Part shown: one piece after another, positions 17,346 through 46,800 of the stretch
Numbering within the stretch: the stretch's first letter is position 1
How the letters are laid out: every line of letters starts with the position of its first letter
Source: Astropecten irregularis
Lineage: Eukaryota > Echinodermata > Asteroidea > Paxillosida > Astropectinidae
Direction of reading: 5' to 3'
Assembly (NCBI GenBank): GCA_963971285.1
Contig: OZ020255.1
Location: 2,480,001-2,544,000 of the forward strand
DNA: 64,000 bases
Notes under the pieces: model-generated
Database searches by the model: none
Told to the model about the DNA's origin: nothing
The model's input: the letters and a program-made list of their open reading frames with translations, nothing else
Translations under genes and position numbers: made by a program

Positions 17346-18083
17346 CTAGTTGCTTGAGCAGAAGTCAACTGCGATATCATGGGACACCGCCTTCATTCCA
17401 CCCTCTCTGACGTCAGTAGATTTGACGGTCATTTTGTAGTCTCCATTCTGAGCTTGTGAATCTTGAGTGATGTTGTACACGGACTGTCCTTGCATCGCCA
17501 CTTTGGAGAGATGCTTGGATTCCAGTGCTTCGATGAGCTTGGCAGAAAGGCACTGCTGATCGGCTGCAGCTCCGGTGCATACGTCAGGGCGGGAAACTAA
17601 CTTCTCGCACATGTAGGACTTCAATAGATTGCAACCAGACATTATTTTCCACTGTCCATTTTCTCTTGCCGAGCCTTCTGCGGTAATGACTGGACACTTT
17701 CCCAATGTCCAATCAGTCGACGGTGACCAGTTTCTATATTGGGTATCGACTCGGTCTTCTCCTTCGACTCAACTCCACACGCCGTTTCCATCCCCAGTGC
17801 AGCCAATCCACATACCCCAGTCGAAATTTGATGCGTCACGCAGCGCAAACATGAAATCGTTCTCTGACTGAGAAGAAGGCATGGCCAGGTATGCACAGTG
17901 TTTCTTACAACACTCAACGGCATCGGCGTAGGTTAGTATGTCTGTACCACAAGGTTGCATCTTGTAAAGAGAGTTACCCCACTGGGTCCATCCAGTCTTC
18001 ACACCGATTGCAGTTGGGCTGATTCCAGACAGAAATAAACTCACTGCTGAGGTGAAACGCACCAGTAATTTCACATCGATCAT
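17346..18083 (-). pseudogene. C-type lectin gene interrupted by one in-frame TGA
   Basis: The single-exon reading frame spans 246 codons including stops. The first about 27 codons encode a signal peptide (MIDVKLLVRFTSAVSLFLSG). Codons about 30-161 form a C-type lectin fold with GWTQWGNSLYKM, the helix containing AVECCKKHCAYLAMP, the WIG core, YRNW and a final CNLLKSYMCEK. A tail of about 84 residues follows with no domain I recognise. Codon 105 (plus 17769-17771) is TGA, in the Gly-Val-Trp-Ser segment just after the WIG core, with the same frame continuing intact for 140 codons. EPN or QPD and WND sugar-binding motifs are not seen, so calcium-dependent sugar binding is doubtful. Alternatives are a recent pseudogene, a sequencing or strain variant, or readthrough. 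I favour a recent inactivation. Confidence 0.7.
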
Positions 18084-18460
18084 TATGGTGATTGAAAAAT
18101 GTGTAGTCTATTAATTAAAGCTCCTGGAAATTGTACACTGAATCTTGGTGAGATTCTGTAGCTATCGTAGCGTCATACAGGTCCTCGGTCCACCTTAGAA
18201 ATGAGTGAATTTTGAAGGAAGAGTCTTACGTATCGTCTTGTACTCTCGTGCAGACTGTATCGTATACTGGTCTAACGGCTCATTCAGGTACCAACTCTGA
18301 CGCAGCTTCAAATTCACCTATATTCACACGTTAATGAACCTATCTAAAAGCTAGGTTTTCAATGCCATTATAAGTTCCATTACATTAAGTATCGCGCCAT
18401 TTCAAGACATATTGTTATCATTGTAATTAATGGCATTAGTGTAATTAGAGGTACTCATCC
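18084..18460. other. Upstream of C-type lectin gene; no gene
   Basis: Would contain the lectin gene's minus-strand promoter. I see no convincing TATA box. Confidence 0.3.
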
Positions 18461-18808
18461 GTGAGCTGCTCTTCGCCGATGACGCAGCCTTGACATCTCA
18501 CACGGAGGACGGCCTTCAGCAGCTTGTCAGTCACTTCTCCCGAGCCTGCAAGGAGTTCGGACTGACAATCAGCCTGAAGAAGACGAATGTCATGCCCAGG
18601 ACGCAGTCTCCCCAACATCCATCACCATTGACGGCTACACCCTAGAAGTTGTGGAGAACTTCACGTACCTTGGTTCCACCATCTCAAACTCACTGACCAT
18701 CGATATGGAGGTTAATTACAGGATTGCCAAGGCAGTAGCAGTCATGGCTCGCCTTAACCAGAGGGTTTGGAACAACGCAAACCTCAAATAGAAAACCAGG
18801 TTGCGTGT
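18461..18808 (+). pseudogene. Non-LTR retrotransposon reverse transcriptase fragment
   Basis: The plus strand encodes the RT catalytic box in ELLFADDAALTSHTEDGL, then FSRACKEFGLTISLKKTNV, one frameshift near 18600, and then SITIDGYTLEVVENFTYLG (with GSTISNS following) and RIAKAVAVMARLNQRVWNN. This is the palm-to-thumb region of a LINE-type polymerase. It stops abruptly at about 18808, exactly where the 60-bp repeat A1 begins, so it is probably the insertion target of the next element. Confidence 0.85.
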
Positions 18809-18868
18809 CTATTTGCATCGATGTGAACGTTGAGGGCGACTGATGATATATCAGTCGCGATTCTGTAG
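18809..18868 (+). repeat. Terminal repeat A1 (60 bp)
   Basis: Identical to A2 at 27096-27155. It contains the perfect hairpin gcgactgat-gatat-atcagtcgc (18836-18858). It starts ctatttgcatcg, the near reverse complement of the end of repeat B. Confidence 0.9.
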
Positions 18869-20629
18869 CCCCCGTAGGTGGGTGTGCTGTTTGCCTGGTC
18901 AGCACAAAGGTCCTTCATTTCCCCAGAAAGCAATGGATTCCCTCCAGAAATAGGAAGGTGATATGGTACAGTTGATAGGAAGGTGATCGTTACCCTTAGA
19001 GCTCGGGAAATGCAAGGTAATGGCGTTTTATCCTGTTTTAATGAGGAGAATTCAGGGTTCTTCGGCGATCGGGATCTTTGGCCCCGCCCCTAATACATAA
19101 TATAAGGGAGGTTCCTGAGTTGGACTTTGTGTCCATGGACACCGATTGAGTTGTCGGTATATACAGGATTTATATATAAAAAATAAAATTGTTGGAAGTC
19201 TTCCATGGGTAATCGTGTAAATCGAAGATTGTCGGAAATTCAGCCAAGGGGGAAGTGGCCAGGTGCATATTGCATTGGGTATGAGACCCTGCACGGCTGA
19301 GTGGTTCAGAGCAATTGCAGTATTTTTATATTGTGTGGCAAAGCGCAGCGCATTTAGGGTGCGGTCCACGCCCATGCCTTTCAGGTCAGGAGCATTCCAC
19401 CACATAATGGAGTGGCCATTCAACTTACGCATTCAATGGATCAGTTCGGTGAGGATCAGACCGCATACATTATGCGATGCCGTAGAGGTCATTCCCGTTT
19501 TTTCATTTACCAAGGGAGTTCTAGAGGATGATGGCAGTTTAATACTGATTATGATAGATTAGTAGAATAAAGGGGAACCCGGCTCAGAAAACGATTACAT
19601 AATGTGAAGTTGAATGAACAGAGTACACTGTAGATATTTTGGGCTCATTGGCAAGGCGTACATGGTACCATTCTAGCCTTTTGTGTTTATAGGTATCGTT
19701 GGGTTGGTTGCGTACAGAGCAGAGAAATCTTTCTCTTGCGTCGGTCTAGCCTCAGGCATTGTAAAGTGGCCATAGATGGTTAGGGTTTATACTGAACGAA
19801 CCCTAGGTCCCCTATTATGAATATTTATACACCCTGTATAAGGGTGCAGGCATATATTTAATGCGGCATCTCGACCGAGGCATAATTTGAGGGGTTTCGT
19901 ATATGAATTATACGCATACAATTTTCGCATTTATGGGTGGTTGTGTAGGCATAGGTGTGTATGCATGTCTATTGGGGGACAAACATGCCCTTTTTTCACA
20001 TTATTTCGGGTTTTGTGTTGTTCATCTGGTTTAATCAATTTGTTGATTGCCTCATATATGATCCTTTTTAATAGGAGGACGCTGGGGCCCGTGGCGATGT
20101 CGGCGAGCCGGTCAGTGCTCCATGGAAAGGTCTCTCTCTGTACTCCAGACAGCAGATGAAATTCATGTTTTCAGAATTTGCGTCCAGGGCGGATGGGATG
20201 ATGTGTGTCCCTACGTGTGGGGTTCGGAGGAAGGCGTGGCACGGTCTCGCTCTAACCTTTGCCCCAACCGGGGGCCCACAAGAGGGAAATGAGAACGAGT
20301 CCCCAACACGGGGCGACGCCACGAGGAGACAGATGCCTTTAAGACTCGGTAAGGTTCATCCCAGCAAGGACGCAAGGACCTATAGGTGCCGGCCCCAGCG
20401 GATTCAAATGGCAACAGGAGTGCCATGCACGCCATACTCAAATTCTTCTCAGGGGTTTCTGGATCGAGTGGCCGTCCAGGATTACTGCCCCTTTTGCGCG
20501 CCACAGATGAAGCAATCAGGAAACAAGTAGGGCGTGTTTATGTCTGTGATTCAAAAGACTGAGGGAAGAAGGGTGGAGGTTTAAAGAATGGCTTCGGGCC
20601 AGTAAAAATAATCGTTGGCTCAATATGGC
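18869..20629. other. 5' interior of the split-repeat unit, no gene recognised
   Basis: Short frames occur on both strands (for example 19052-19432 minus and 20156-20530 plus), none with a family I can name. Stop codons are frequent in all frames. If this region once encoded Gag or RT, it is heavily decayed. Confidence 0.4.
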
Positions 20630-20659
20630 ATGAGGTATTGCACAGGGGGAAATCTCTAA

Positions 20660-21340
20660 CATACTACAAACAGTCGTAGGGGGAAATCCCCGGTGCCACT
20701 ACATGTATACTGTACGAGAGGTGCAAAGACTCAAAGAGCATGACGGTGCGGTTAGCCGTGAATGACTGTGGCTCGAGGATATCAGTTGATGTGCAGGAGA
20801 AAAGCCCCAACGCGCTAGGAACAGCCGTAGGGGGAAGGCCCGGTTCAGCTCTGTTGTATGAACGGTGCAAAGACTCAAAGAACATGAGGGGTCAGCTATA
20901 GACGTGAATGGATGTGGCTAGAATATGAGGTTTTGCGCAGGTGAAAAGCCCCTAGCCAGAGACAGCCGTAGGGGAAGAGCCCTGGTTCGGCTCTGTTGTA
21001 TGAACAGTACAAAGACTCAAAGAGCATGAAGGGACAGCTATAGCCGTGAATGGATGTGGCTAGAATATGAGGTTTTGCGCAGGTGAAAAGCCCCTAACAT
21101 CAGAGACAGCCGTAGGGGAAAAGCCCTGGTTCGGCTCTGTGGTATGGACGGTACAAAGACTCAAAGAGCATGGTTTGTGAATGGCTGTGATTTGAGAGCA
21201 TGGGTTATGCGCGGGGAGAAGCCCCAGCGCGCTAGAAACAGCTGTTGGGGAAAAGCCCCGGTTCGGCTCTGTTGTATGAACAGTGCAAAGAGCATAAGGG
21301 TACAGCTAGCCTTGAATGGCTGTGGATTGAAGTACAGTGT
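20660..21340. repeat. Tandem repeat of about 135-150 bp, five copies
   Basis: Copies begin near 20669, 20821, 20963, 21106 and 21238 with acagccgtaggggaaaagcc, then ggttcggctctgttgtatga, then gtgcaaagactcaaagagcat, then gtgaatggatgtggctagaa and gaggttttgcgcaggtgaaaa. Each unit carries two G-run/C-run snapbacks. Confidence 0.85.
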
Positions 21341-22529
21341 ATCAGTGAGATCCTTTGAGATTCAGGTATTTTGTGCCGTCATGGCAGTCGTTTTTTGCAC
21401 TCTGTGAAAGGGTTGTGATGGTGCATGCTCAGATCCGGTGTTTGAAAATGTATGCCCGGATTCAAGGCTAAGTTTGTCTAAGGGTCCGCGACTATCCTTT
21501 TAACCCTAGAGGGTTTGGCAGTGGGATTTATTCACAGTTAAGGTGCAGGACCCATACAGAAACTCAGTGTCTTCTCATGCTTTTAAAACAAGGGGAAAGG
21601 GGGAAATCCCGGCCATACATTTATTGGGTTTTACGTGGACAAGTTGCATCAGACGCAGCTCTCAACGTGGCATGAGAACGTCAATGACAGCGGTTTTTCC
21701 ATTGGAAGCATTTTTTCATATCCCAAATCTGCTTGTGGTGTTTATATTTGGCCCGCTCGCACCTTTTCGTAGGCGCTACTCTGTTATAGTGGGCCTGTTA
21801 TGTGTTGTTTGCGCCAAAATAAAATGGAAACAACAGACAGATTGTCGGTTGGGAAATGCCCGGTTTGATCGGGAAAAAACCCGCACAGTGGAAAATGTTC
21901 TTGTTGGCTCCCGCCTTGGGGAGGGGGAAAACCTCCGCCTGGAGGAGTTCAAGGATGGGTCTTGGGTCTAGATCGTTTGGGGTCACGACCTCTGCGATCC
22001 TTGCTATAGCCCGATGGGGAAATCAATCAATCATTGGCAATCATGATAAATTAAGGGAAATGTGGTATATATGGGACCTGACTCTGTCGTGAGTATATTC
22101 GGTATTCACGTATTTTATATATTTTGTATTTAATAAGTCGGCAGCAGTCCGTTTTTCTTGGGTAGAAGCAGTCGTTTATATCAGGTCAGGCGTTTGAAAA
22201 TGAGGAAAATAGGCTAAATGGGATGCCCAAATGTGGGGAATATGGCCTCATACTTATGATAATAAGCGTTGGTACGGGACAAGCCCTGCCCAACAAAGGG
22301 AAGGGGGAGGAGAACGCCCACGTTTTGCAGGATGCGCCCCTGAAGTTGTGTTCAGGGTGTGGGGAAACCCAATCGAATTCTAATGAATCGCAAACTTGCT
22401 TGCAGGAAGTGATTGCCCTTGTCGGGGCGGGTGACATGCCCAATCTATACCCAGAGAGGGGGGCTAGGCCCCAACATTACATTTTTCGGGCGATGTACAT
22501 GTAGGTCAGACACACGCAGCCTTTATTGA
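21341..22529. other. Single-copy interior with scattered G-run/C-run hairpins
   Basis: No gene recognised. Snapback strings continue between the two arrays: gggggaaatcccgg (21600), gggaaatgcccgg (21851), cgggaaaaaacccg (21869) and ggggaaaccc (22359). Confidence 0.5.
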
Positions 22530-23770
22530 GTCTAGCTTGCTGAAGTAAGGCAAGCAAGAAAGGGGAAAAGCCCCATAAAAGTGAAGCTTGCTGATGTGAG
22601 ACAAGCAGGTGAGGGGAAAGCCTCATAAGAGTGAATGCTTGCTGAGGTAAGACAAGCAGGAGAGGGGACGGGCCCCATAAGAGTGAAGCTTGCTGATGTG
22701 AGACAAGCAGGAGAGGGGAAAAGCCCCATAAGAGTGAATGTTTGCTGATGTGAGACAAGCAGGAGAGGGGAAAAGCCCCATAAGAGTGAATGCTTGCTGG
22801 TGTGAGACAAGCAGGAGAGGGGAAAAGCCCCTTAAGAGTGAATGCTTGCTGGGGTAAGACAAGCAGGAGAGGGGACGGGCCCCATAAGAGTGAATGTTTG
22901 CTGATGTGAGACAAGCAGGAGAGGGGAAAAGCTCCATAAGAGTGAAGCTTGCTGGTGTGAGACAAGCAGGAGAGGGGAAAAGCCCCTTAAGAGTGAATGC
23001 TTGCTGGGGTAAGACAAGCAGGAGAGGGGACGGGCCCCATAAGAGTGAAGCTTGCTGATGTGAGACAAGCAGGAGAGGGGAAAAGCCCCATAAGAGTGAA
23101 TGCTTGCTGAGGTAAGACAAGCAGGAGAGGGGACGGGCCCCATAAGAGTGAATGTTTGCTGATGTGAGACAAGCAGGAGAGGGGAAAAGCCCCATAAGAG
23201 TGAATGTTTGCTGATGTGAGACAAGCAGGAGAGGGGAAAAGCTCCATAAGAGTGAAGCTTGCTGGTGTGAGACAAGCAGGAGAGGGGAAAAGCCCCTTAA
23301 GAGTGAATGCTTGCTGGGGTAAGACAAGCAGGAGAGGGGACGGGCCCCATAAGAGTGAAGCTTGCTGATGTGAGACAAGCAGGAGAGGGGAAAAGCCCCA
23401 TAAGAGTGAATGCTTGCTGAGGTAAGACAAGCAGGAGAGGGGACGGGCCCCATAAGAGTGAAGCTTGCTGATGTGAGACAAGCAGGAGACGGGAAAAGCC
23501 CCTTAAGAGTGAAGCTTGCTGAGGTAAGACAAGCAGGAGAGGGGACGGGCACCATAAGAGTGTAGCTTGCTGATGTGAGACAAGCAGGAGAGGGGAAAAG
23601 CCCCTTAAGAGTGAAGCTTGCTGAAGTAAGGCAAGCAGGAGAGGGGACGGGCCCCATAAGAGTGAAGCTTGCTGATGTGAGACAAGCAGGAGAGGGGTAA
23701 AGCCCCATTAAGAGTGAAGCTTGCTGAAGTAAGGCAAGCAGGGGAGGGGAAAAGCCCCTATGAGGATGTT
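22530..23770. repeat. 51/52-bp tandem array with higher-order structure
   Basis: About 24 monomers of the type gaagcttgctgatgtgagac followed by aagcaggagaggggaaaagc and cccataagagt. Each monomer can form two stems, GCTTG...CAAGC and GGGG...CCCC. Variants alternate: monomers with gtgag carry GGGGAAAAGCCCC, while those with gtaag mostly carry GGGGACGGGCCCC. A six-monomer block of 310 bp starting at 22891 recurs at 23201. The minus strand is stop-free over long stretches because most units are multiples of 3, which gives a spurious 361-codon frame. Confidence 0.95.
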
Positions 23771-24190
23771 GTTGGCTGATGGCAGCCAGGCAGGAGAGGA
23801 TGAAAGCCCCTATAACTTGCAGCTATAGTTGATGCGAGACAGGCAAGAGAGGGGAAAAGCCCCTATATAAGATAGAGGCTTGCGGATGTGACACTAGCAA
23901 GGAAAGATGAAGCTTGCCGGTAAGAGGCAATCAAAGGGGGTCCCCTGAGAAGGGTGAGGTTCTTTATGAGGCAGGCCCTATCAGGAGAAGAAGAGAAATT
24001 AAGCGGCCAGATAATAATCGCTTATTATGGGACAGGCACAACCTGTATCTGAAGGGAGGGGGAATGTTTGCTGACATGGGACAATTCTAGTCAAATCAGG
24101 AGGAGAGGGAGAAAGCCCCACGAAGGGTTTGCTAGTCCATTCAAATAGTCTAAGTGTTAACGCATAAAAGCAGACGGAAAATGAAGAGAA
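23771..24190. repeat. Degenerate continuation of the 51-bp array
   Basis: Diverged monomers remain recognisable to about 23940 (gacaggcaagagaggggaaa, gaggcttgcggatgtgacac), and the gaaagcccc motif persists to about 24120. Confidence 0.7.
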
Positions 24191-25189
24191 CATTGGGGCA
24201 AACATAACGGTGACGAATGCTTCACTTTTATCGGGAAGGCCCGAAAGTCCAGAAGGGAGAGAACCCTTTACGGTAAGACGGGCTACGCCGGGGCCCGGAA
24301 GAGCCCATCAAGGGGCGGTGTGGACGTGTTCCAGCAAGGAAACACTATATATAATAAAACAGAATGCTATAAGACGTGTTGAACTCTTGTGGTTTTTTGA
24401 TGTGGTTTTTAACACTGTTTTGTTCTCTTTCCTGTTGCCCAGTCCATATGCCCCGCTGGCTTGCAGTCAATACTTCCTGGGAGCAGTTGTCCGCCAATGT
24501 TTTGCAGTTCTTACCTTACAGCCGGGGCAGGGGATAGCTCATGGGCAGACATTATCCGCCGGGAGGGTAGCTATCGCCAGGTTGGACTAAATCCGAGTCT
24601 TGGCTTTTACGGCCCAGAATGGGTCGGGATGGGCGGCTCCGTGGCGCGAGTACTGATGGGAGGCTTGGGATACGTTTTTGACTGGGTTAGGGCACGGTGC
24701 GTGATGTGGAAGGGGAATCAGATCAGAAGCTTTGTCAAGGCAGTCCGGCAAGGCAGTTCCAAAGCGCGCTCTCGCATTGGCGGGTAGTTTGTTTGTGCCC
24801 TTATCATTAAAACAATTGCAGGGCTTTTATTTGCTTGGCAGCTGGATCTCGCCATTTGTCCGTGCGGAGGAGCAGTGGAACCCATGAAGAAGAGCAGTGG
24901 AACCCATGCGGAATTCTCGTTTGATTGCCGTTTCCTAATGGAAGCCAATAGGGGTTCAAGGTGTACATGTAGGCTCCTGGGCGACGACTTGCATTATAAT
25001 TCATTCACTTCCGGAGGGTTCAGCCAGTGCCAAAGAAGACGGGAGTGTCACTGGCCTTATAATTGGGCCATTTCATTGACGTGAGGAGAGGACATCGACG
25101 GCCGGCTTGCACCTTATGGGTCAGTTGCTACGCCTCAATTCTTGCTCTTTATGGGCATCCGATGGGCTGATACGAAGAATGTTATATTT
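24191..25189 (+). other. Interior, possible decayed polymerase region
   Basis: No intact frame. A translated string ALALAGSLFV near 24765-24795 resembles the segment that follows the RT thumb in DIRS-type polymerases, but this is weak on its own. A 19-bp direct duplication (agagcagtggaacccatg) sits at 24868-24910. Confidence 0.25.
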
Positions 25190-25640
25190 GTTTGGGTTGT
25201 GTGGCGTTTTCACCTCCTACCTTAATGGTCCCACCTTGGTTCCGCTGATTCGGGGCCAATAGATTGGGGGACAGGAACTTCCGCTCAACAATGCAGCTCA
25301 CCTTGGATGCATCGAGTTACAGATATAGGGTGGAGTGCTGCGGTCGCTGATTTTGTTAGAGGCATTAAGCTTGGGTTTTATTCGTTCACGAGGGTCATAC
25401 GCTGCAAAGAGGCTCCCTTCACTTCGTGCTCCCTGTGGTGCGCCGTCTTTTGAGCAGAGAGGTGGATGCGCTAGCGGATTCGTTGATATAACGCCACGCG
25501 GGATCAGGTCTCCAAGCGAGGTCGGTCATGTTTGCGAGTGAATTGAGGCCTTCTCATTTGTGCCTGCAGTGGAGAGGAATTTCATTTGTTGGTGCCGTTT
25601 AGCAGTAGGCCTAATCCGACTGACGCTCCCTCGAGGTAAT
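25190..25640 (+). pseudogene. Decayed RNase H-like region of a DIRS-type polymerase
   Basis: Across shifting plus-strand frames the expected landmarks appear in order and at normal spacing: a Trp/Phe-rich connection ending SYLNGPTLVPLIRG (about 25210-25255), LDASSYRY (25301-25324), KEAPFTSCSLW (25405-25437), a basic segment, and NPTDAPSR (25613-25636). In the family these correspond to the DAS, KEL and ADALSR motifs, about 110 residues apart as here. Several frameshifts and stops show it is dead. The call rests on motif recognition by eye. Confidence 0.4.
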
Positions 25641-27024
25641 TTTTGTCGAGGGCTGGCTCTCGGCTCATACCGTCTTTGGGGTGGCTTCTTCGCGGGAGGA
25701 ACTGGGCGGTAAGTAGTACGTGAAGTCTAACGCATGTGGGTTTCTTCTACTAAACGTGCAGTTTGCACGAACGAAAGGCCAGTCAGGAGAGGCTGGTCCA
25801 AAATTTTGGGCGCTTGCCCAAACAATAGCAGGTACGGGGCTGTTTGTTTGATCAAGCTGGGATGCACTTGCTCGAACTTGCCCCCCCCCCCCCCCCCTGC
25901 TGCCAATGTTACTGAAGGTGGAAACCCCGGATGACATCGTCAATAGACCGAGGCTCAAGAGGGAAGACCCGATCCTGTCATGATGTCCTTGGATGGCCTA
26001 GTGGGGGAGACAAGGTTTGCAAGAAGGCTGGCGTCAACCATGCCTGGTATTCGGTAGCGGGCACAGTGGGCTCATCTGGGAAGACCTTATGGCATATTGT
26101 CCTCTTTGTACTCGATTGCGGACATCCAGGGTATCCAAACGCCAGAGAGAAAATTCCAATCATCGAAGTGGGTCAAAAAATAAATGAATCTACTCAGTTG
26201 GAGCAGGCCAGGGCGCTCGTCTTACCAGGAGGTACAATGGACTTTTTTCTCTGGCGTGCGCGATGGTTGGTCGGTGAGATTTGGGAGTCAGGCAGCTTTG
26301 CCTTCGCTAGGGCAGCGAACCCAAGCCTCATTTCAGCTGAATATTTGGGTTCCCTTCTGATTTCTAGGCATATGGGGCAACGGGCTTGAATCAGGGTTGT
26401 GGATCTGGCCCGCGAGGATGCTTTGACACGTTTTCAGGAGCTTCAAATTTCCGGATGCCCCGTGCCAGTTGCTTAGTGAACAATTTTTTTTTTTTCGTGA
26501 GGCAGCCCTGATATCCGGTTTCAAACTGCATTGTCAGGTTCTTTGGACGAGGGCTGCCACGCCCTGGGAGCACTTAGGCACTTGGCCTCCACCTTGAAGC
26601 TTCTAGGGCCGCGGAGCAGAGCAGAGAGCGGCGCCCCGAACCTGGGGTGCAGCTGTGCCACATTAACGACGTAACGAGGCCTCGCGTCACAGTTCTAGTG
26701 CCTCGCAGTGCGGTTATAGCCTTAACGGTAGTGGAAGGTGTTCAGCAGCGGGCTTTGCTGGGGTTTCTATCGCCCTTTGGTCCGTGGCTCCAGAGCCCTT
26801 CTGGCTTTCCAATTCATTACCTTACTGGAGTTCAGACAGGTCTATAAAATCGGATATGGGGTCTAGAGCCCAATGGCAAGAGATGAGACAACGGTGGACG
26901 AAATGGTTGCAGGTTTTGCAGCTTATCAGAAAGGGGGCGGCTAAGGTATGGGAGTGAGAGATGGGGTGGTTTAGGGAGAGTTTTACTTGGAGGAGATGCG
27001 CGGTTCGGCAGGTGCCCGGAACTA
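25641..27024. other. 3' interior of the split-repeat unit
   Basis: The longest frame is 25931-26389 on plus (152 codons), with no domain I can name. A tyrosine recombinase would be expected here if the element is DIRS-type, but no H-x-x-R or terminal Tyr signature is evident. A poly-C run lies at 25880-25898. Confidence 0.4.
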
Positions 27025-27091
27025 AAATCATTTCTACCCATATCTCAATCCATAGAATCCAGAGCCCGAGACAATACAGCGATGCAAATAG
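27025..27091 (+). repeat. Internal repeat B1 (67 bp)
   Basis: Begins aaatcatttctacccatatc and ends acagcgatgcaaatag. It differs from B2 at one visible position (gagaca versus gagaaa). It directly precedes A2. Confidence 0.85.
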
Positions 27092-27095
27092 TTTA

Positions 27096-27155
27096 CTATT
27101 TGCATCGATGTGAACGTTGAGGGCGACTGATGATATATCAGTCGCGATTCTGTAG
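27096..27155 (+). repeat. Internal repeat A2 (60 bp)
   Basis: Identical to A1. Only tttA-type spacer bases separate it from B1, so B1 end and A2 start form the hairpin cgatgcaaatag-ttta-ctatttgcatcg. Confidence 0.9.
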
Positions 27156-27300
27156 ATTCTGGGGATGAGGTGGAAGCGGAAGCGGAAGCTGCAATGTACA
27201 CGCCGCGCGCCTTTGGATTACAGGGGTGATTTTCTCCTTTTGCCCCGCCCACCCACCCCCTTTTGGAAGCATCGTTGCTGTAGGGCTGGTTTCTACACCC

Positions 27301-27367
27301 AAATCATTTCTACCCATATCTCAATCCATAGAATCCAGAGCCCGAGAAAATACAGCGATGCAAATAG
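27301..27367 (+). repeat. Terminal repeat B2 (67 bp)
   Basis: Second copy of B in the same orientation, 145 bp after A2. It ends cagcgatgcaaatag and marks the right end of the unit. The following tggtagaacatctttc ... ggctgaatgtctccacg matches a block near 14721-14790. Confidence 0.85.
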
Positions 27368-27795
27368 TGGTAGAACATCTTTCAAAATTCTCTGGTGGCC
27401 ATTTCAGGCTGAATGTCTCCACGTTTTTAATGCTAACTAAATATGTGTAATTTTGTTTTTAGGTCTTCCTAGAAGTCAACACTAAAAGTGTCAAATACAT
27501 CCCGACGCAGTATTTTAGGTTTCGTCAAGGCTGCGTGCAGTTAATTTAGGGATATTATATATTGAAAAGCACGAGGAAACCAAAAACCTACGAAAGAACT
27601 TGAGGTTTCTCCTCAGCTGCTGGGAGTATTTCATGAATATAAATGTGCGCGGTTGTCGATTCGGGCACTTCATTAATGACGTCAGTGTTTGAACTTGGTT
27701 ATGACTAAATTGAGTTTTGTCCATTAGGGTAATTTCTCATCGACTCATTGGTAGTATGAACAGCTTATCGGGCTGGATAACTCTACAGCCAGCCA

Positions 27796-28480
27796 CTAGA
27801 TATGAAGGGCATCTCGATGCTCAGTATTTACACGAACTTGGTGGAACATGCCATCTATATCAGCCATCAAGACACCAACGAGCTTGTTGCTGAGATCCGG
27901 ACCTGGATATGCATTAATTTTCATTGAGTGAGGTACCTTGGAAAGATGTTGCTCAATCGAACATGATTCGCATTTTATCTGGCTTGTGGGGGTTAAGTAT
28001 AGGGTGATGGAGCAGGTACCACACGTAACCATCATTCCTGTCCATTTCATTATCTTGGACCATTTACGCATATCCCTGCCTTAGGAGGTCGTTGATTCTG
28101 TAATTCTCCTATAGAACTGGATCATTGGAAAGCCGCCTTCCCAATAGACCCAAGAAGTGTTCAGTATTATAAATGGATCTGTCGTCAGGTAGGTGTGATG
28201 ACGGTCTCTCCTTAAATGGAATTTTCAAGGAGTGATTGGCTCCTTGTCGACACTAGAGAGAACTTTCCAAATGTGCTTTAATTCCTTTCAATGGTGGATG
28301 GAATACTTGTGCTGCTTCCAACATCATCAAGCTTCCAAAACTTCTCAGCTTGATGCTGTAGGTCAACTTCGTTTTGACGAAGTACAAAGCAAATACTTGG
28401 CCTGACTTCTAAAGGTTATCTTGACCAAATGTCCAGCCTAGAGCCGTAATGGTTGCCGCTATCTTCGGAGGTATGCCATC
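27796..28480 (-). pseudogene. BEL/Pao retrotransposon pol remnant
   Basis: The minus strand encodes, with frameshifts and stops, motifs typical of the BEL/Pao polymerase in order. They are a stretch like LPDDRSIYNTEHFLGLLGRR, then NPHKPDKMRIMFD, then PGPDLSNKLVGVL and finally MADIDGMFHQVRVNTEHRD. About a dozen residues normally between LVGVL and MADI are deleted. No LTR, integrase or complete RT is present, so it is a dead fragment. Confidence 0.8.
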
Positions 28481-28538
28481 ACTTGGTTTTCCATGATGCA
28501 TTTTTTTGTTGAAAAGGTATAAGATATCAAAGCTCACA

Positions 28539-28621
28539 AATAATACCACCCTACGGAATGGAATCAACCAAAGCTCATGTCATGAGCTTTTGTTGATTCC
28601 ATTCCGGAGGGTGGTATTATT
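28539..28621. repeat. 83-bp near-perfect palindrome
   Basis: The left arm aataataccaccctacggaa ... aagctcatg is repeated as its reverse complement catgagctttt ... ggtggtattatt. Arms are about 41 bp with a few mismatches around a single-base centre. The flanks show no obvious target duplication. Confidence 0.9.
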
Positions 28622-29799
28622 CACGAACATGGAAAATCATTCTTATAAAATCCAATCGTTTAAGCCTCACAACCTTGGCTTTCTTTAAAGGCATCATTAA
28701 TGAATATTTTGTCCCATTCCGTATTCAACTTTCTATTTAAGATGTTTATTCATTACCCGATCTTCAATATGGTACATTGGCCTGAGAAAGCACTTATCGA
28801 AATCCTAATAAAAAGCTCGTTTTTCAGAACAATTCGTTATGATTGATTAATGATTAACTTCCAAGAGAACACTGCGTCACTAATTCGTGAAATTCATCAC
28901 CTTGTCTGTATGTGATCTCCGTAAATATCGCTTTTGTGAAGTAACACACAATTTTGAAAACAATATACATTGCTTCAAATCCTACTTAAAATACATTGTC
29001 TTTGAATATTACATTATTTTGTGAAGAATGCTAATATCACAATTACGACAGCGGAATTTTAAAAACGATTTATCTTAATAAGGTAAGAACATCCTTACAC
29101 CTCTCAACCGTTAAAAACCTGGGACACCTCCCTTGAACTAAAATCAATACTTCTGCCATTGGCGCCAATAATGTAACCTAAAGGGCATTATGAAGGTGCA
29201 TATAAGTTACTAATGAGTATAATTTATTACAGAAATAAGTAATGAAGTTTAAAAGGGTGACGTATTATACCTCATATAACATACATTATTTTATGAAATT
29301 ATTCATCCACTACTTTTATTTTAATTTATAGACATTAGCCAGGATTCATTAGATTCTAGTGTAATCAAATGTATTTGATGTATTTGATTATTGATCACTC
29401 CTCTCATTAAAACTACATGAGGTAACTATGATTACTCATAGTAACACGTAATAATTGCATAAATACACATTAGGAACAAACATCGATTACGAAAAAAATA
29501 TAATAAGTACAGCGTGATTCATGATAATTTATTTTAAAATTAAGATAATTTATTTAAAAATAATTGATTTTCATGAACCAACTCTTCAACTTTAGTGTCA
29601 TTACACCTTTTTGTGGCCGCCATGACATATGACATTGTTGGCGAATCACAACCACTAACTGCATCCCGTTATTGCGCTTGTCGCGGGAGTTGACTGATGT
29701 TATCATAACTATTTGTTTATCTTTCACTTGAGTTCTTACGTACCGTAACTAAGCAAACAAAGATTATGAAAAAAAAACATGCAACATTTAAAAAACACA
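28622..29799. other. No recognised gene
   Basis: AT-rich sequence, including attaattatgattaat-like inverted AT tracts at 29515-29575. No supported feature. Confidence 0.4.
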
Positions 29800-29950
29800 C
29801 AAACAATATGTGCGCAGGTCTATGATGTGCGATGCATCGCGCGTCATTATGTGCACAGATATTTGTGATGTGCAAACATCGCACATCACTGATATGTATC
29901 ACACATCACAAATGTGTGTGCAGATATTTGCGATGTGCGATGTCCCTCCT
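29800..29950. repeat. Cluster of gatgtgc/gcacatc inverted repeats
   Basis: gatgtgc and gcacatc units recur about eight times in both orientations, for example gtgatgtgcaaacatcgcacatcac (perfect 9-bp stem). The cluster gives several mutually exclusive hairpins. Confidence 0.75.
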
Positions 29951-31547
29951 GTGCAACAAGTCTTTGCCATCTTCACGCTGTGAATAATGTAATGCGCGCC
30001 CGAAGTGTCATGTGTCATGGTGCCCACCACATCATGCCCTGAATACGAAACCATACTATTATAATCAGGGTTTAACCCTTACTTGTTAAATTACTACATT
30101 CACCAACATTTACAAACTCACAGAGATACGGGATCAGGCCAATTGACACCAATTTACAATCAGAAAGAAATGGTGCCAAACATCATACATTAATTATATC
30201 CAAGATTCATTGTTGTGAATATCAAAGGTCCTGATAAAAATGAACACTTATAATGAAGTTGCACTCACATGCTATGGACCATTATGTTTTATGAAGGGAA
30301 TGTTGAGATTCAGAGGATGTACACCATGTAAGGACATTTATTGTCACCCATGTTTTAGAATTGCTCGGACACTATTGGTATATTTTCCTCAATTTTTGTT
30401 GACATCTTGCAGCAGCGTCAGTGCAGTTGAAAATCAGTGATCAAACTGTACTTACTCTACTTCTTTTAGTACCCTACTTGCCATGTTTAACTGCTTACAT
30501 TTTGCATGTACTGTATTGTACAGTTTTTGTGTGTGCCAATAACTGGGTTTCGAATAACAACATTTGGACACATTCAAAGATACATTAGAGCTTGAAACTC
30601 CTCATGGCACATGTGAGTCTGGGGCAGCCACCTGTGAACCTGTTCTCGTTCAGACTGTAAATTCCTAGTTCAAACCTTTATTTATCAGACAGTGTGTCAT
30701 TTTATTAAACATAAAATCATTATTCACAAACGACAATCTGAATGTAAAAGTAAACGAAGGAAATCTAGCCCAATAGGTAAAATAATAACAAATACACTGA
30801 CAAATATTTTTTAATTTGGCAGAATATATTGGTGATCTTGTGGTCATGTAGCTTTTCAATGACCTTTTTTGCACTCCTAGTATGTACAACATAGGATTAG
30901 TCAGCTATCGTCATTGCACCATTTATCAAATGGACAGGTACATGTATATTTTATCGTATTTCTTTATCAACCTACAATCTTGATCTCTAACTGATTTGTA
31001 TGCCTACATTACAGAGTATACACCATAAAAACTCTTGTGAGGAAAAACTTTGAAAGTTTTAAGTGATCTAAAAACGAGGATTAATAAATTCCTTGTTAAT
31101 AGGAATATAGTGAAAAGACTTGTGATCGTTTTTTTTTAGCCCTATTTGAGCATCCGAATACCTGGCAGAATACGGGTAAGTAGGACTGCAGTCCGTTGTA
31201 ACGTAACATAACAGTTCTAGCTGAAGAGCGGCGAGTTCATACAATATAGCGACACCATGGAAAGACCGAGCGACGCGGGACTTTTCAATACATGAATTTT
31301 ATGAAGTTTTAGGTGAACATAAGGGTTGAAGTTTGGCAGAGATCATTTTAAGTTCTTAATAACTTTATGCTAATAATAGCTAAAAGGGTATGTCTTCCTT
31401 TTCATATTTCCCTTTTTATTTCCCTGACTTGTCCACGCCTGACCGCCTCTGCACTGCCGAGTGATTCCCCATTGAGAACTTTGTTTCTTTTTTATTCTCC
31501 GCATTCACCCCAACGAAACCATTTACATGCATCGGACAATTTTGTAC
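29951..31547. other. No recognised gene
   Basis: Intergenic AT-rich sequence. Short frames only, none convincing. Confidence 0.4.
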
Positions 31548-32902: not shown

Positions 32903-35900
32903 CTGAAGGCAATGAGAAGAAAACAGGCTAGTGCCATGTAAGAATTGCTTATAGTGCTGACTTCGTCAAGCAGTTAATGAACGTCTGAATGATCAAGTCA
33001 TTCCTGATGGTTAACAGTCATCATTTGATAGCAAAATCAAAGGCAAACAGACTAATGGAATGGATACTGATCGTGAAAAGAATTTTTCCACTCACAAACT
33101 GATATAAACAAACTTTGAAAACGATCCTGCTAGGATTGAAACGTCAAGTCCTCCTACATCCAAGCATTTGCTATTATAACCAAATATTCCCATATTTATC
33201 ATTTTAATTTCAGATTGATTCTTGTAAACTACGACGACTCACCTTGAGGTACAATATCAGATCAGTTCGAGTCCTCTTTGATGCCGAATCACCTTGTTGA
33301 CCTTGTGTCACATTCATTCTCTTTGATGTATTTCTCGTCTTCATCACACCAGCAACGGTGAGAGAAAACAAGACGACATTGCAAGCAAGAATCAGGAGAA
33401 TGGGAACCCCGAATGAGAGCAGGTTAGCCATCCCATTACCAATCCAACATGCAAACTCAGAACCATAGTGGATATCTACTTCTACGCAGTCGCAGAAGCT
33501 CAGGATGACGCAAGTGCAGACAATCAGACTTGGTGCTGCCAGGCCGTAGAGGGCGTAGTAGCGAAAGGACCTGTTGTTGGGGTTGATGATTGCAGTACCA
33601 ATGCCAAAGGTACGATAGATGTCAATGGCAAGGATGTTCATCCAGGAGAATGCAGACAGCCAGAAGAAATGTGACGCAATTGCAAATGTTGTACACAAAG
33701 CAATGACGTCAGTTCTCTCCAGACCTACATCAAAACAAAATTGCAATAATACAACCAGCTTTGTTTATGAAGGTAACATGAGTGATTCTTATAAAAATAT
33801 GTTTTTCTTACTCAATGGAGGGAAAGGTGTGGACGGTGATTGGCAGAAAGCATTATGTAAATTGTTATTGAGTGTCTGAGAAGACAACCATCAACAATAA
33901 TACTAATTTCAATGTATGTGGGTCAGAGTCATAGAGCTATATTAAAATTATTTTAACATAGCTCTATGGTCAGAGTTCATTGCCAAATAGAACTGTGTCT
34001 TATAACACAGCCTTCATCGACCCCTTGATATCTACTTGCAGATTAACTAAGAGGTCTGAATTCCATGAATGTGAAGTTTGAGTGGGGACACTTAGTTAGT
34101 TATCATAACTATCTACTTACCTACGAGCATCGTCAACTGTGCGAAAAACAGTGACGCTACGAGACACATGAGAGACTTGCCAGCAGCATTACGACGTAGA
34201 ATCGGAAACGTGATGTACGTGGCAATAATGACCACAAGACCAAGCAACGACAGAGCACTGCCAGTAACTGTCAGAATAGTGTGAGCGTAGTCCCAAACTG
34301 ACGATATGGATGGCTCAGAGGTAACGAATTGGAGGAAGTTGCAAACTTGAACTTCACCATTCTCCTTCAATGTGAATTCACCTGCCTGGAACACGCGGTC
34401 GTCTTGTTTGAGCCGAATTGAATCGTTGAGGGCGCCAGTCACGACGTATTCATCTTCAGTAAAAGTCACTAGTGGACATTCAATGTTGCTGCAAGTAGTA
34501 TTTTGTGAAACTTTGAAGAGGCCAGAATAAGCATCCCACATATATGCAACTTTGGATGTCAGGTTCGTGTTTGGTGTAGCTGCGCTTGAAGCATTTCCAA
34601 GTGGTTCACATGGAGCTGAGACTGCCAAGTAGTGTAGTTCAATTCTATGGTTCCAGATGTTACCTCTGAAGCATTGCTTGAGGAGCATTTTGCTAGAATC
34701 AGTGAGTTCATTCATAGGTAGCACTGTGGTGCTGAATGACACGTTGACAACGCAGGTAAATACGTTGTTCATGATACATTCATCTACGGGATTAATATTG
34801 TCTCTGCTTGTTGAACATGCCCACGTGATAATCACGTCATCACAGCTTCTACTTCCTTGCTCTTGCTCTCTCGTGATCCCGTTTGGTTCCATGTTACATG
34901 CGGAAACATATGACTCAAAGTCATCAACCGTTTTGTATGCAATGTCCTTCCACATGGCGTCAACATTTGAGCTGTGCTCTACTGATGTGTTGTGGAAACT
35001 TCCAGTTACATTGAATGTTATCTTGATATTCACCATCGGGTCAGCTGCCGAGTCTTGATTGATCTTGGAACACCTTTCTCCTTGTAAGGCAAATCCTTCC
35101 GGGCAAGTCAAGTCTCTACATAGGTCTATAGTAAGATCGTAGATTTGGTTATCGTGGCATTTAGCTGCGTTTGTTTCTCCCGCATCGCTGTTGCCAGTAT
35201 GATCAGCAAATACCAAAAGAGTTGCCATCGACAGAGGTTGAACCTTATGACCTGGAGGAGGCTCCCATGACTCTCTCAAAGAATCGCACATACCATTGAT
35301 ATCTATTCCTGTTGTTGGAGAGATATTGCACTGTAGACATGCCAAGTTCTTGTATGTAGTGCCATTTAGTGCGATTGGTGCATTATACTGGCCACAGATT
35401 GCTTGAGTGTAGGAATCACCAAACTGGCAGGGACCAGTTTGACTTAAGATGACGCAGCTACGGAGTGAGGATGTAGCCAAGTGAGATGTAAATGTGTATC
35501 TATCAGTGTAGCCAGGAGGACTGTAAATCCTCTTCACTAATGGATTTTGTGTCGTCTCTTTTGCAATGTCCAGCAATTGGCTGCTATTCAAAGCCTTCAA
35601 ATCATTGATTGTTTTCTCTTCAAACGATACAGACCAGAAGGTAAGATTACCTGGCTGTAGACCGTGGCAGAGTGCACAGTAAATGTTTCTGTAGTGCAAT
35701 CCGTCTGTCCCCTCCACCGGAAATGCTGCAATACCAAACATTGTGTCTGTTTCCTCGCATAATTCACGAATTGCAGAATCTCCCAACCAATTAGATGGAC
35801 AGAGAGCAACTAGGTAGTGACCGGAACGTGGACGTGATATACTTGGATTGAATTCAGTCGTCTGAATGCACTTGGTTAAACTGTCCAGTGGGGGATCTTC

Positions 35901-38900
35901 TACCTCCTCTGCTTTCTTCTTACACAGGTCCTCATGATAATCAGGGCAGCAATCATCGTACCTCATGCAAAGTGGATCGCAGTGACAGTAAAGGGTTCTC
36001 ACCCAGACATATTCTTCGCATTGATCATTACAAGTGTGTCTTACTGTGATGTCTGTAGGGCAGGCGTATGTGATGGGTCTTCGTGTGGTAACTGATTGCG
36101 TTGATGCTTCTATGATCGGTGTAGGGCTTGAATAAGTATCGGGTCCTGTGAATGCAAAAATAAAAGACCACAAACATCAATTACAGTAGAAAAAAAAATG
36201 TTTTCAGAGTATGCGGCAGTAATCAATCATTTTAATATTTGCACAGTTAGATTGGATAGAGTCAGTGGTGAAGCTATAGTCAAGAGAGACAAATATTTAA
36301 AGTTCTAAAACTGAACATTGCAGAGTATAACACAATATTTCTAGAACACTTTATGAAGGTTTTCGTAGTGAAAACATGTACAAATTATACCGTCTGATTA
36401 AAGATAATTAACGGGAAAACAAAGGTTAGCGTATGCGCATTTCCTGTTCGAAGGATGTTGCAAACAAGTGGTTTTAGACCAGTAATCGTAGCTGGAACCC
36501 ATGATAGCTATACACATTTTTTTTCGAGTTCACGAAATGTTTTCGAGTTCACGAAATGTTATGTCGAGTTCACAGAATGTTTCCGATAACACGAATTGTT
36601 TTAAAGAATACAAAGAATAACAGAATTATATTCTAGTTCACGAAATGTTCGTAAATATCATGAAAACGGCTTAAGTGTACCGTTTATTTGTGTGAAATGT
36701 TATATTCTTCATTTGAAAGACCTTTCCAGTCATGATAAAGATATGCATTGGGGTCATTCCATGTGAGACCAACACACTTTTTTTTCTTAGGTTCTTTGAT
36801 TTTTATAAAAATTGGTATGCAAGTAGGTATCAATGAGTAATGAATGCATGCCAATTTTTATTGGAATCCCTCAAACTGTGAGGCCAGTACGCATGCGCCA
36901 AAAATACGGAAATGTTCATGTTCTGACACTACCTTTCCATAGGATTAAACTATAACTCGGTCATATTTCCACAAAATATGCAAGTTTGGTATCAAAATGA
37001 CCGGAATTAGATGCCCGAAGCGACACCACCCTAAAAATATAGAAAAAGTAAAAGCCGATGACCTTTGCCACACAGACTTTGACCTTTGACCCAGATTTAA
37101 AAAAATATATCATTCCGAAATTTTATGAAACGACTTTTTGGTTGATTGAACAAGTTTTTGTTTCTACAAGATTCCTTTGAAATTGTTCTGGGGCACTTGA
37201 AAATTTACGATTTTATGGCATTTTTTCTTGTTTGTGCATGTCCATTTTGTACCCTTTTACAACAAAAATCCAATTCATGTCTCATTCTCCTTTACCCTGC
37301 AGTACCTCTGTGACAGTATGCGGACCTCACTGGCAGGGTTGAAAAAAATCATGATAAAAAAAAATGGGATTTTTTTTTATTTAAAGATGGAGAATAACGA
37401 TTTGTAAAAAAATGAAACAAATACAAATCCTCGTTTATAAGACATATAAGAACCTTCTCATAATATACAATGTGGCTGTTGTTTTTTCATTATTTAGTAA
37501 TATTTGAAATAAAATTTGATAGTAATTGTCAATTCTTGGGACTATTTACCCAAACTGGCCGTGGGTGGCGCTATTTAAATTCATGTCAATGTGTGACGTA
37601 GTCGAGGGGATACGGTCCACGAACGAATCCCCTCGGCGCGCGGGAGTTTCCAATGAGTTTTGTGTACATGCGGTTTTTGTATGCTAAAACTGTCCGAATC
37701 ACTGCCCGAATGATCATAAATATCCGATTGGTACATTGATTCTTCATCGATGCTGTATTCCTACCAAGGACGGTCGCCATATGTATCATTTTCAACCATT
37801 TTACCTTCGAAATGATTGGAGTGCATGTATTGCGTGTGGGTATGTAATATGCAACACACTGAATATAAATATTCATAAGGAAAGCGAATCCCCTCTTCTA
37901 CCTCACCAACTTGAGGAAAACATGAATATTCATGATATGTAAATGAACCAAAAACGGGCAAAGTCGAGAGAAAATTTATCATTCTTGGCGAATGTGGAAC
38001 GGTAAAAGGTGGCTTAAAATTCACATCAAGAAACTTCAAAAAGTGAGGGTTTATTATATGTTTACCTTAATTGGAGGTAGGTGAACAAAATTTTACGTGA
38101 ACATCTTATTTTTCGAAATCGTTGGAGCCCAGCTTTAAATCAGATTTAGTTTTATTTAAAAAAAAAATTTTATTTTCATTAAATTATTAATTGTTTACGT
38201 AATAACATCATAACTTTTGCTTCAAAACCCCATAAATGCTGCCAAATTGCATCTTCTTGTCGCTTTGGCGTTGTGGTCATTAAAATGTAGCAACAAAAAC
38301 AGAGCAACAAAAACAGAAATTGTTACTGACTGTCACTACAGGCATATTGTAATGCTTCCCTGCTGATGGGATGTTTATGACCACGTTCAAAGATGTTTCA
38401 TGGCTTGTACCAGTGGTCCATTTGCATCTCAGTACATGTGTATTAGAGCTAATAATGGCAGTATTACTGTGCAAAGTCAAGATGTAGTGATGTTCACAAA
38501 CAGATGTTAATTCTGTTAATTCAGTTTATGCAGTTACATACATATATATTATACTGTGTGTACATTTTATTCATTGCCAGGTTGTATGTATTACAAGTAA
38601 TGCTGTACACATACTTTGTGTACAGCATTATTCTGACTGGGGGCCGCCATTGGTCACGTGAATAGGGCCAAATCATTCAAACGCAAATTTGTTTTCTGGA
38701 TGAAGATCACTTCGTAAGGTTTTGAAAAGGATGAAACGTAAGTGTAAATTGACCGACGCGCGACCGAGAGGCCGTGCTACGAGTGCCACGTCCCGACAAC
38801 CTGTTCCTGCAGAACTTTCGCCCGATACACGGCCGTGAGGCCATGCTATGAGTGCCACGAGTGCCATGCCCCGACAACCAGTTCCTGCAGATCTTTTGCC

Positions 38901-46518: not shown

Positions 46519-46800
46519 TTCTGCATCAACAATGTGAAAGTCGATCTGGTAATCAGTCTTCGATGAGTCGATGCGACATGGCAGTTTAGCTTGTCCAACT
46601 GTGTGGAGCTCTGTTCCTCCATAAGCGATGAGCTTGGTTGACTTGGAACGATCGGTGGACTAGGGCGGTGCGATGACATTGTAAACATTCATGGGCAGCA
46701 GTGTCAAGTTGGACAGGAATATGTGTGCGATGCACGATAAGCGTAGCGTGGATGTCGTGTTTCAGGTTCAAGGTAGTATTTTCTACAGCTCTGACGTAGA
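46519..46800 (-). pseudogene. Ty3/gypsy aspartic protease remnant
   Basis: VQLDTAAHECLQ carries the catalytic Asp-Thr-Ala triad in one frame. Flanking protease sequence (AYGGTELHTVGQAKLPCRID) lies in another frame. Confidence 0.6.

Follow-up and report, generated by a model that had tools for sequence, protein, structure and literature searches.

The window analysed here, a 64,000-nucleotide stretch of contig OZ020255.1 from Astropecten irregularis, contains a composite element delimited by two pairs of split direct repeats, termed A and B, with two tandem arrays in its interior (Table 1). The first-pass annotation had described A as an identical 60-bp pair and B as a nearly identical 67-bp pair in the order A1-interior-B1-A2-B2, and direct comparison agrees: A1 and A2 are identical at 60/60 positions, and B1 and B2 match at 66/67, the T that follows being also common to both. 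Only 4 bp (TTTA) separate B1 from A2. The 12-mer CTATTTGCATCG occurs with 0 mismatches at exactly four sites in the window, which are the starts of A1 and A2 and, on the minus strand, the ends of B1 and B2. Since one 12-bp sequence, inverted, both opens A and closes B, the B1-TTTA-A2 junction forms a perfect 28-bp palindrome. The 9-bp hairpin of A, GCGACTGAT-5-ATCAGTCGC, is found at exactly two sites in the window, with 0.01 expected when up to 3 mismatches are allowed. Hammerhead-like motifs are a feature of Penelope-type elements, and A contains a hammerhead-like CTGATGA; as a ribozyme candidate this was dropped, since the Rfam scan of 18000-28400 contained no ribozyme and returned only a sub-threshold SECIS-like match, located outside the element.

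Table 1. Terminal repeats and interior features of the element copy in the window.
Feature	Position	Strand	Remarks
A1 repeat, left terminus	18809..18868	+	starts with 12-bp arm CTATTTGCATCG; 9-bp hairpin at 18836-18858
5' interior, unique	18869..20690	+	includes ORF 20075-20530
Tandem array	20720..21172	+	144-bp unit, ~3.2 copies
Tandem array	22534..23899	+	52-bp unit, ~26 copies
3' interior	23900..27024	+	coding not recognisable
B1 repeat	27025..27091	+	inverted 12-bp arm CGATGCAAATAG at its end
B1/A2 junction, perfect palindrome	27080..27107	.	28 bp, CGATGCAAATAG-TTTA-CTATTTGCATCG
A2 repeat	27096..27155	+	equal to A1
A2-B2 spacer	27156..27300	+	145 bp, non-repeated
B2 repeat, right terminus	27301..27367	+	followed by TGGTAG, versus the usual TTTACTA

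The element also stands apart in composition, as had been claimed, with a GC content of 0.45-0.53 and a GC skew of up to +0.34 inside, compared to a GC content of 0.39-0.42 in the adjacent left and 0.34-0.36 in the adjacent right sequence. At 44-48 kb, the window has another island that is rich in GC and skewed towards G. The earlier statement that the left end cuts a LINE reverse transcriptase (RT) frame was corroborated by a frame ending at 18807, which matches profile positions 150-193 of RVT_1 (E 5e-7). A six-frame Pfam search of 27368-30069 for the remainder of this LINE to the right of the element gave 0 matches, and is a weak test for the part beyond the RT core. In the 52-bp array, a first hairpin (GCTTGC/GCAAGC) is predicted in 23/23 single units and a second one (GGGG/CCCC type) in 19/23. 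The stems are almost invariant and thus offer little covariation, so that what backs the predicted fold is the contrast in variation between loops and stems, many unpaired positions being as conserved as the stems. No similar DNA was found in a phage collection.

Genomic copies and their insertion sites

A search of the genome with A gave 81 candidate matches; these were ordered by how closely they resemble A, and 40 of them were scored and inspected. How nearly identical A is among copies thus partly reflects ascertainment, and a deletion removing A2 would escape notice. Among the 40 scored matches, the full layout A1-interior-B1-TTTA-A2-spacer-B2 is present in seven copies including that in the window. 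The other full copies are colinear and share a consistent interior of ~8 kb, the whole composite measuring 7.6-8.6 kb. The first-pass annotation had stated that its reading would fail if A and B were independent short repeats lacking a consistent interior, and this objection is thereby removed. Identity to the window copy over two aligned segments, with gaps uncounted, is 93-97%, and L038 alone is at 88%. Within copies, A1 and A2 show 0 mismatches in 6/6 measured, and B1 and B2 show 0 mismatches in three and 1 in three of the six measured. L022 carries two private substitutions common to its B1 and B2, as would be given by renewal of both repeats from one template, or by conversion. The A2-B2 spacer is 139-145 bp long in six copies. 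The seventh full copy is L027. Its A2 equals A, its A1 differs from A at 2 positions, its B2 has decayed, and TGTATA is found near its ends on either side.

If the composite were a pair of adjacent DNA transposons with inverted repeats, both from one family (A1...B1 of 8283 bp and a 272-bp miniature, A2...B2), each would own 12-bp terminal inverted repeats. Two copies, L034 and L037, are indeed devoid of A2-B2. We nevertheless regard this arrangement as very improbable. The TTTA-spaced B1-A2 junction is kept exactly at 10/15 A2 loci, at unrelated sites; the private substitutions of L022 are common to B1 and B2; and a free A2-B2 unit was absent among the 40 scored matches to A (41 candidates unscored). 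One candidate for such a unit, L031, was rejected and proved to be A1-632 bp-A2-B2 with an internal deletion. Neither unit of the window copy is flanked by a duplication, inspection by eye of the pairs 18809/27091 and 27096/27367 having revealed none, and no fixed-length target-site duplication of the kind expected for a terminal-inverted-repeat DNA transposon was found in 12 insertions.

A target duplication is not consistently present at the insertions, and their target motif is weak. An exact duplication of at least 3 bp, directly after B or after TTTA, was found in 0/12 insertions for which both flanks were available; L027 alone among these 12 has a 4-bp flank match after TTTACTA. The left-flank table comprised 20 insertions including the window, in which four C30 copies with one flank were counted once and from which L031 (internal deletion), L041 (flank like that of L026) and L028 (A1 start mutated) were omitted. 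In this table, T at position -8 and A at position -1 each occur in 15/20 insertions (p 5e-6 and 5e-5, respectively), and the same two positions stand out in an earlier table of 22 rows. At the right, 8/15 ends continue directly as TTTACTA, or 9 if L022 is counted, where 6 extra bases intervene. TTTAC is present at 11/15 right ends including L022 and absent from 4/15, the window among them.

The A that precedes A1 also bears on a rolling-circle origin. We hold a Helentron-type element or its non-autonomous form (HINE) to be very improbable, although Helentrons and HINEs, as far as the available description goes (PMC4067079), have a terminal palindrome, tandem repeats in the interior and short inverted repeats close to the termini, and the short inverted repeats, the hairpin near one end and the tandem arrays of the present element look HINE-like. 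The A1...B1-A2-B2 layout does not figure in that part of the Helentron description (PMC4067079), Helentrons favour insertion within a TT dinucleotide, and neither Rep nor helicase was found in the window copy by the six-frame Pfam search.

In L028, L031 and L033, internal deletions end exactly at the junction between B1 and A2, at TAG or A|CTA, and at least six further interior deletions (in L022, L025, L027, L028, L033 and L038) end elsewhere. L036 and L026, in which the element sequence stops early, were rejected as autonomous partners; Gypsy-type LTR elements that encode a DDE integrase are present in both, and both thus represent nested or neighbouring insertions.

Coding potential of the interior

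The first-pass annotation had assigned the element to the PAT/Ngaro type of the DIRS order. The terminal layout and the recurring interior speak for this assignment, but the enzymes that it implies were not found. The window copy was translated in six frames, stops being written as X, and searched against Pfam: RT and RNase H were both absent at E<=1, a tyrosine recombinase and the methyltransferase domain that is a feature of PAT were likewise not found, and the top score was a sub-cutoff match to DUF7840 (E 0.009). Inspection by eye of the three plus-strand frames of 18800-22540 and of all six frames of 23890-27095 revealed no relics of RT or recombinase. Since RT/RNase H and a tyrosine recombinase are the defining features of the DIRS order, the element is at most a non-autonomous relative. 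Elsewhere in the genome there are 108 matches to PF00589, the tyrosine-recombinase family, many of them in open frames of 340-430 aa, and 0 of the 108 fall within the window or within the stretches fetched around element copies.

Two interior segments, together ~4.6 of 8.3 kb and lying to either side of the middle of the interior, were compared between copies. In the segment compared in 11 copies, substitutions fall into the three phases as 260/247/271 and 28/125 indels are multiples of 3; the corresponding values for the segment compared in 12 copies are 459/499/462 and 50/234. These segments show no sign of coding constraint and evolve like non-coding DNA. An ORF at 20075-20530 spans 151 aa from stop to stop; it is open in 5/12 copies and its length is divisible by 3 in 10/12. 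Its substitution bias (44/64/81) is equalled by that of an adjacent non-ORF stretch (63/32/23), so that the ORF is at most a candidate, with some remaining coding function possible.

That ORF, together with ends matching those of a coding family, could suggest that the copies are the dead, decayed remains of a once-coding Ngaro/PAT element instead of a family that spread as non-coding DNA. We give this little credence: one non-coding interior is common to the copies, which are mostly 93-97% identical over the compared segments, with A1 equal to A2 in all six measured, and this common interior and the equality of A1 and A2 indicate that the copies multiplied after coding loss.

Affinities and proposed mobilization

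The arrangement A1-interior-B1-A2-B2 with A1=A2 and B1=B2, which characterizes Ngaro, PAT and VIPER, is found here with near-identical pairs in six copies, though not in L027, and with a spacer in addition. In the available descriptions, Ngaro elements such as DIRS-53_XT of Xenopus likewise have A1 as their 5' terminus and B1-A2-B2 as their 3' terminus, with identical pairs; the repeats of DIRS-53_XT are longer (A 236 bp, B 152 bp), whereas the present element combines repeats of 60 and 67 bp with an A2-B2 spacer of 139-145 bp. As described in the same portion of the literature, Ngaro elements encode gag, RT/RNase H and a tyrosine recombinase, plus an SGNH hydrolase in amphibians, whereas the present element has no recognisable genes; PAT, of the DIRS group, is described as having a methyltransferase domain besides RT and recombinase. 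PAT-like elements have split direct repeats, as does the element, and Ngaro elements make no target duplication. The A1 / B1-A2-B2 layout is also that of VIPER from Trypanosoma cruzi, according to the available account, in which the non-autonomous SIRE of the same organism consists of A2, an exclusive stretch of ~30 bp and B2, like the A2-spacer-B2 part of our element. However, SIRE is presented there as short and free, a few hundred bp in length, and in A. irregularis the non-autonomous unit is the entire composite of 7.6-8.6 kb. Large non-autonomous LTR elements, the LARDs and Dasheng, resemble the proposed element in being long, gene-less and mobilised in trans with conserved ends, and differ in having LTR ends and a DDE integrase in place of split direct repeats and a putative tyrosine recombinase.

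From the ends, the interior and the insertion sites, we consider it likely that this is a large, non-coding, non-autonomous split-direct-repeat retrotransposon with Ngaro/PAT/VIPER-like ends, mobilised in trans by tyrosine-recombinase retrotransposons. Enzymes provided in trans would carry out reverse transcription of its RNA. Inside the element, the B1-TTTA-A2 block would keep the sequence of the joined ends, so that a circle could be closed that contains CGATGCAAATAG-TTTA-CTATTTGCATCG as its palindromic site; the 28-bp palindrome is thus proposed to be a copy of both the circle junction and the recombinase site. A tyrosine recombinase would then integrate the circle by crossover at (A)CTA into a target of roughly T-6 bases-A-CTA, the CTA of the target being presumed. 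The usual recombinase site comprises 11-13-bp inverted repeats around a short core, according to the available text of PMC3212892, and the palindromic 12-bp arms are consistent with such a site. The weakest step of the scheme concerns the twin-hairpin arrays, which probably act at the RNA level as cargo or as packaging signals. A bolder form, which we hold to be unlikely, regards the element as an RNA parasite of tyrosine-recombinase retrotransposons with only cis-acting content, namely a live internal recombinase site and up to ~26 twin-hairpin units (GCTTGC..GCAAGC, GGGG..CCCC) that would capture the Gag/RT of a partner; the internal copy of the junction is read as live because three deletions end there.

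The palindrome, the absence of a consistent target duplication and the junction deletions need just a recombinase, and the RNA stage of the element is putative. A DNA-only circle handled by a tyrosine recombinase (Crypton-like or plasmid-like), passing through no RNA stage and with A2-spacer-B2 as a small second unit locked to the large one, would account for these features, but appears to us unlikely. Copy number rose without coding capacity; in the available text (PMC3212892), Cryptons lack both terminal inverted repeats and long direct repeats, and the Crypton combination of a YR gene and short terminal direct repeats, with no inverted or long direct repeats, was not found in the element. 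The fixed composite with A1=A2 and B1=B2 is, in the accessible parts of the descriptions, typical of Ngaro/PAT/VIPER retroelements (PMC4157794, PMC9210276, PMC6681497).

Non-autonomous split-direct-repeat tyrosine-recombinase elements seem to be scarcely described. Non-autonomous members are familiar in most retroelement orders. A literature text search did not return 'non-autonomous Ngaro', 'non-autonomous DIRS' or similar phrases, and a literature search gave no description of a satellite-array-driven, coding-free retroelement. SIRE of T. cruzi is, by the available account, such a non-autonomous case under another name, and a curated brown-alga survey reports 15 Ngaro families, among which gene-less members are not discernible in the accessible text (PMC12477816). 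The gene-less family in A. irregularis, with its near-identical end repeats, isolates the probable cis requirements, which are A, B, the TTTA core and the 28-bp palindrome. To our knowledge, the use of B1-A2 for regenerating lost ends is a model and not an observed reaction, and such a family allows it to be tested with a donor a few hundred base pairs long.

Terminal repeats and genomic copies

Both repeat pairs lie at the positions that the first-pass annotation had claimed (see table). That annotation did not note that the 12-mer CTATTTGCATCG, which has no further perfect match within the 64-kb window, starts A while its reverse complement ends B, nor that A2 and B2 are not adjacent, with 145 bp of other sequence between them. 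Because B1 and A2 are just four bases apart, positions 27080-27107 form a perfect palindrome, CGATGCAAATAG-TTTA-CTATTTGCATCG. A 9-bp hairpin lies within A.

Terminal repeats and tandem arrays of the window copy
Feature	Window position	Description
A1	18809-18868	60 bp, identical to A2
Tandem array	20720-21172	144-bp unit
Tandem array	22534-23899	52-bp unit, ~26 units
B1	27025-27091	1/67 positions unlike B2
A2	27096-27155	60 bp, identical to A1
B2	27301-27367	1/67 positions unlike B1

The host assembly (475.7 Mb, 168 contigs) was searched with A, yielding 81 candidates; the best 40 of the 81 were scored, at 97-100% identity over the aligned part, and all 40 were inspected. Typed by the sequence after A, these best 40 comprise 26 A1-type and 14 A2-type matches, and a further, degraded A2 within the fetched region of locus L038 gives 15 A2-type loci. 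The full layout A1-interior-B1-TTTA-A2-spacer-B2 occurs in seven copies: the window copy (locus L011), L021, L022, L023, L024, L025, and L027, with a total length of 7633-8595 bp in the six measured (all but L027). The search for further copies, which the first-pass annotation had suggested, recovered the same unit in six others, whose interiors, but for gaps and insertions, are colinear with that of the window copy.

B1-TTTA-A2 is intact in 10 of the 15 A2-type loci (L002, L003, L006, L008, the window, L014, L017, L018, L019, and L025). B2 is present in nine of these 10, with indels in L027 (same locus as L019), and the match at L029 (same locus as L002) stops within B2. The start of A2 or the bases just to its left are altered in L028, L031, L033, L038, and L042, and in L034 and L037 B1 is followed by flank, without A2-B2. 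Since L031 and L034 have both flanks in common on one contig, they are duplicates of one insertion from which different parts were later lost. A single left flank is common to L031, L032, L034, and L035, all on this contig, C30, where they lie at 4.68-4.70 Mb and at 10.41-10.43 Mb; the sequences indicate a segmental duplication carrying one insertion, with later deletions differing.

Ends, target sites, and junction deletions

In six full copies A1 never differs from A2, and B1 and B2 differ by 0, 0, 0, 1, 1, and 1 bases. The seventh copy, L027, has a degraded B2, an A2 that matches A throughout, and an A1 that departs from A at two positions. Two substitutions in L022 are common to B1 and B2 and absent in the other five copies, pointing to renewal from one template, or to conversion. 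Were A1...B1 and A2...B2 two independent neighboring elements instead of one unit, they would not yield both substitutions in both repeats. The ends of the element behave like those of a split-direct-repeat retroelement.

The left flanks vary among copies and are followed by CTATTTGC, except in L028 (mutated start) and L045 (one mismatch). TTTACTA directly opens the right flank in eight of 15 insertions and, after six extra bases, in a ninth (L022); TTTAC is found in 11 of the 15, including L022, and the window's TGGTAG is one of the four exceptions. The sequence 3' of B2 repeats what comes after B1 inside the element, as would be expected from a circle with the junction B-TTTA-CTA... opened by a crossover at CTA. 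No exact duplication of at least 3 bp was found directly after B or after TTTA in the 12 insertions with both flanks; after TTTACTA, a 4-bp match occurs in one of the 12, L027, which has TGTATA near both ends. With 20 insertions counted once each, the left flanks have T at -8 and A at -1 in 15/20 each, positions that were chosen from a scan of flank positions and that were also the two prominent ones among 30 in an earlier 22-row table; the target preference is real, and it is weak.

Three internal deletions stop exactly at the B1/A2 junction, in a set of copies located through A, so that deletions destroying A2 would go unseen. The interior is joined to CTATTTGC after ...AATGGA in L031 (1-base overlap) and after ...GGAAACA in L033, the interior itself reading ACTAT (5-base overlap); in L028, ...GGGTCTAG is joined to TTTACTAT, the interior reading TAG (3-base overlap). 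The internal B1-TTTA-A2 junction may be a live recombination site, at which misplaced recombinase crossovers, occurring at a TAG or ACTA to the left or right of TTTA, would give such deletions. Ordinary microhomology joins fit also, as the short overlaps are compatible with them as well. At least six further interior deletions (in L022, L025, L027, L028, L033, and L038) have ends elsewhere.

Interior and surroundings

The plus strand of the interior is G-rich, with a GC skew of 0.18-0.20 in five full copies besides the window's. The first-pass annotation had proposed an HMM search of the interior for RT/RNase H and a tyrosine recombinase; a Pfam search of the window copy in six frames (X at stops, with power reduced by frameshifts) matched none of these, nor any domain above cut-off. 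Substitutions by phase number 459/499/462 in the 5' segment 19848-22528 (12 copies including the window, 93-97% identity to it; L038, 88%), where 50/234 indels are multiples of three; the 3' segment 25189-27091 (11 copies including the window, 93-97% identity) gave 260/247/271 and 28/125. An ORF at 20075-20530 (151 aa, stop to stop) is open in 5/12 copies, with a length divisible by three kept in 10/12; YCPFC lies close to its C-terminus. We infer that the copies multiplied as non-coding DNA. The young end repeats of the six measured full copies, set against interiors diverging by several percent, suggest several source copies over time.

In the 52-bp array, one hairpin was predicted in 23/23 single units and a second, of GGGG/CCCC type, in 19/23. 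For four 150-base windows of the array (20 shuffles each), z ranged from -2.2 to -5.4 on the plus and from -1.0 to -3.2 on the minus strand; values were comparable in two 144-bp-array windows (-4.0, -4.2), and a minus-strand window of the right flank reached -6.5. Across 93 distinct units, drawn from 15 copies, variation is highest at five loop positions (0.31-0.44) and low at stem positions (0.00-0.13), with positions 2-5 fixed by the unit-cutting pattern and many unpaired positions as conserved as the stems. These predictions suggest, but do not prove, a structured RNA.

The LINE at the left end breaks at the element, as had been claimed. On the other side, 2.7 kb of the window copy's right flank gave no protein-domain match and TTTACTA is lacking, so the original right junction of this copy may be gone. 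On the minus strand, a C-type lectin domain is encoded at 17400-18065, at a distance of 0.7 kb on the element's left side, and a somatomedin B domain in a long ORF at 34113-36176; an ORF at 33210-33764 resembles, by eye, a GPCR membrane segment. Two pairs of oppositely oriented arrays resemble fold-back elements: ~345-bp units at 3326-4133 and 6584-7385, ~2.5 kb apart, the arrays being placed like the arms of such an element, and 31-bp units (AAACGATTATGTCCGACCCATTGTGTCCGAC) at 48813-49273 and 51085-51550, ~1.8 kb apart. A second island that is GC-rich and G-skewed, at 44-48 kb, holds Gypsy-type RT/RNase H fragments (45423-46659, minus strand; RVT_1 and RT_RNaseH_2 in 45423-46019). In L026, 972-bp direct repeats of a Gypsy-type LTR element (510-1481 and 6378-7349) each include A1 and the initial ~370 bp of the split-repeat element, which the LTR has apparently captured; L041, with a similar flank, may be another copy. 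In L036 (reverse strand), a Gypsy-type LTR element with RT, RNase H, DDE integrase, and a PNMA-like gag match lies past the first 776 bp, in or adjoining the element copy.

Class assignment and candidate helpers

Repeats are described in the order A-pol-B-A-B for Ngaro (PMC3783388) and A1-B1-A2-B2 for PAT and Ngaro (PMC4157794); Xenopus Ngaro has an A of 236 bp and a B of 152 bp, each pair identical (PMC9210276). Recombinase sites are described as 11-13-bp inverted repeats with 6-8 bp between (PMC3212892). Of the PAT/Ngaro-type reading in the first-pass annotation, the split-direct-repeat layout holds and the coding side does not, so the element is filed under neither Ngaro nor PAT but as a non-autonomous variant. 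The closest precedent comes from T. cruzi, where SIRE is the counterpart of the A2-B2 portion of VIPER, its two repeats being separated by ~30 exclusive bases (PMC6681497). Ngaro-like elements are also described in amphioxus, one with an unusual split-repeat arrangement (PMC2632668).

PF00589 has 108 matches in the host genome, and many of them lie within open frames 340-430 aa long. The best recombinase matches lie on contigs C66, C72, C76, and C161, which are not the long ones; these, like a few matches on small contigs, may stem from bacterial DNA contaminating the assembly. The element probably works like a split-direct-repeat tyrosine-recombinase retrotransposon, for which the PF00589 proteins are possible helpers.
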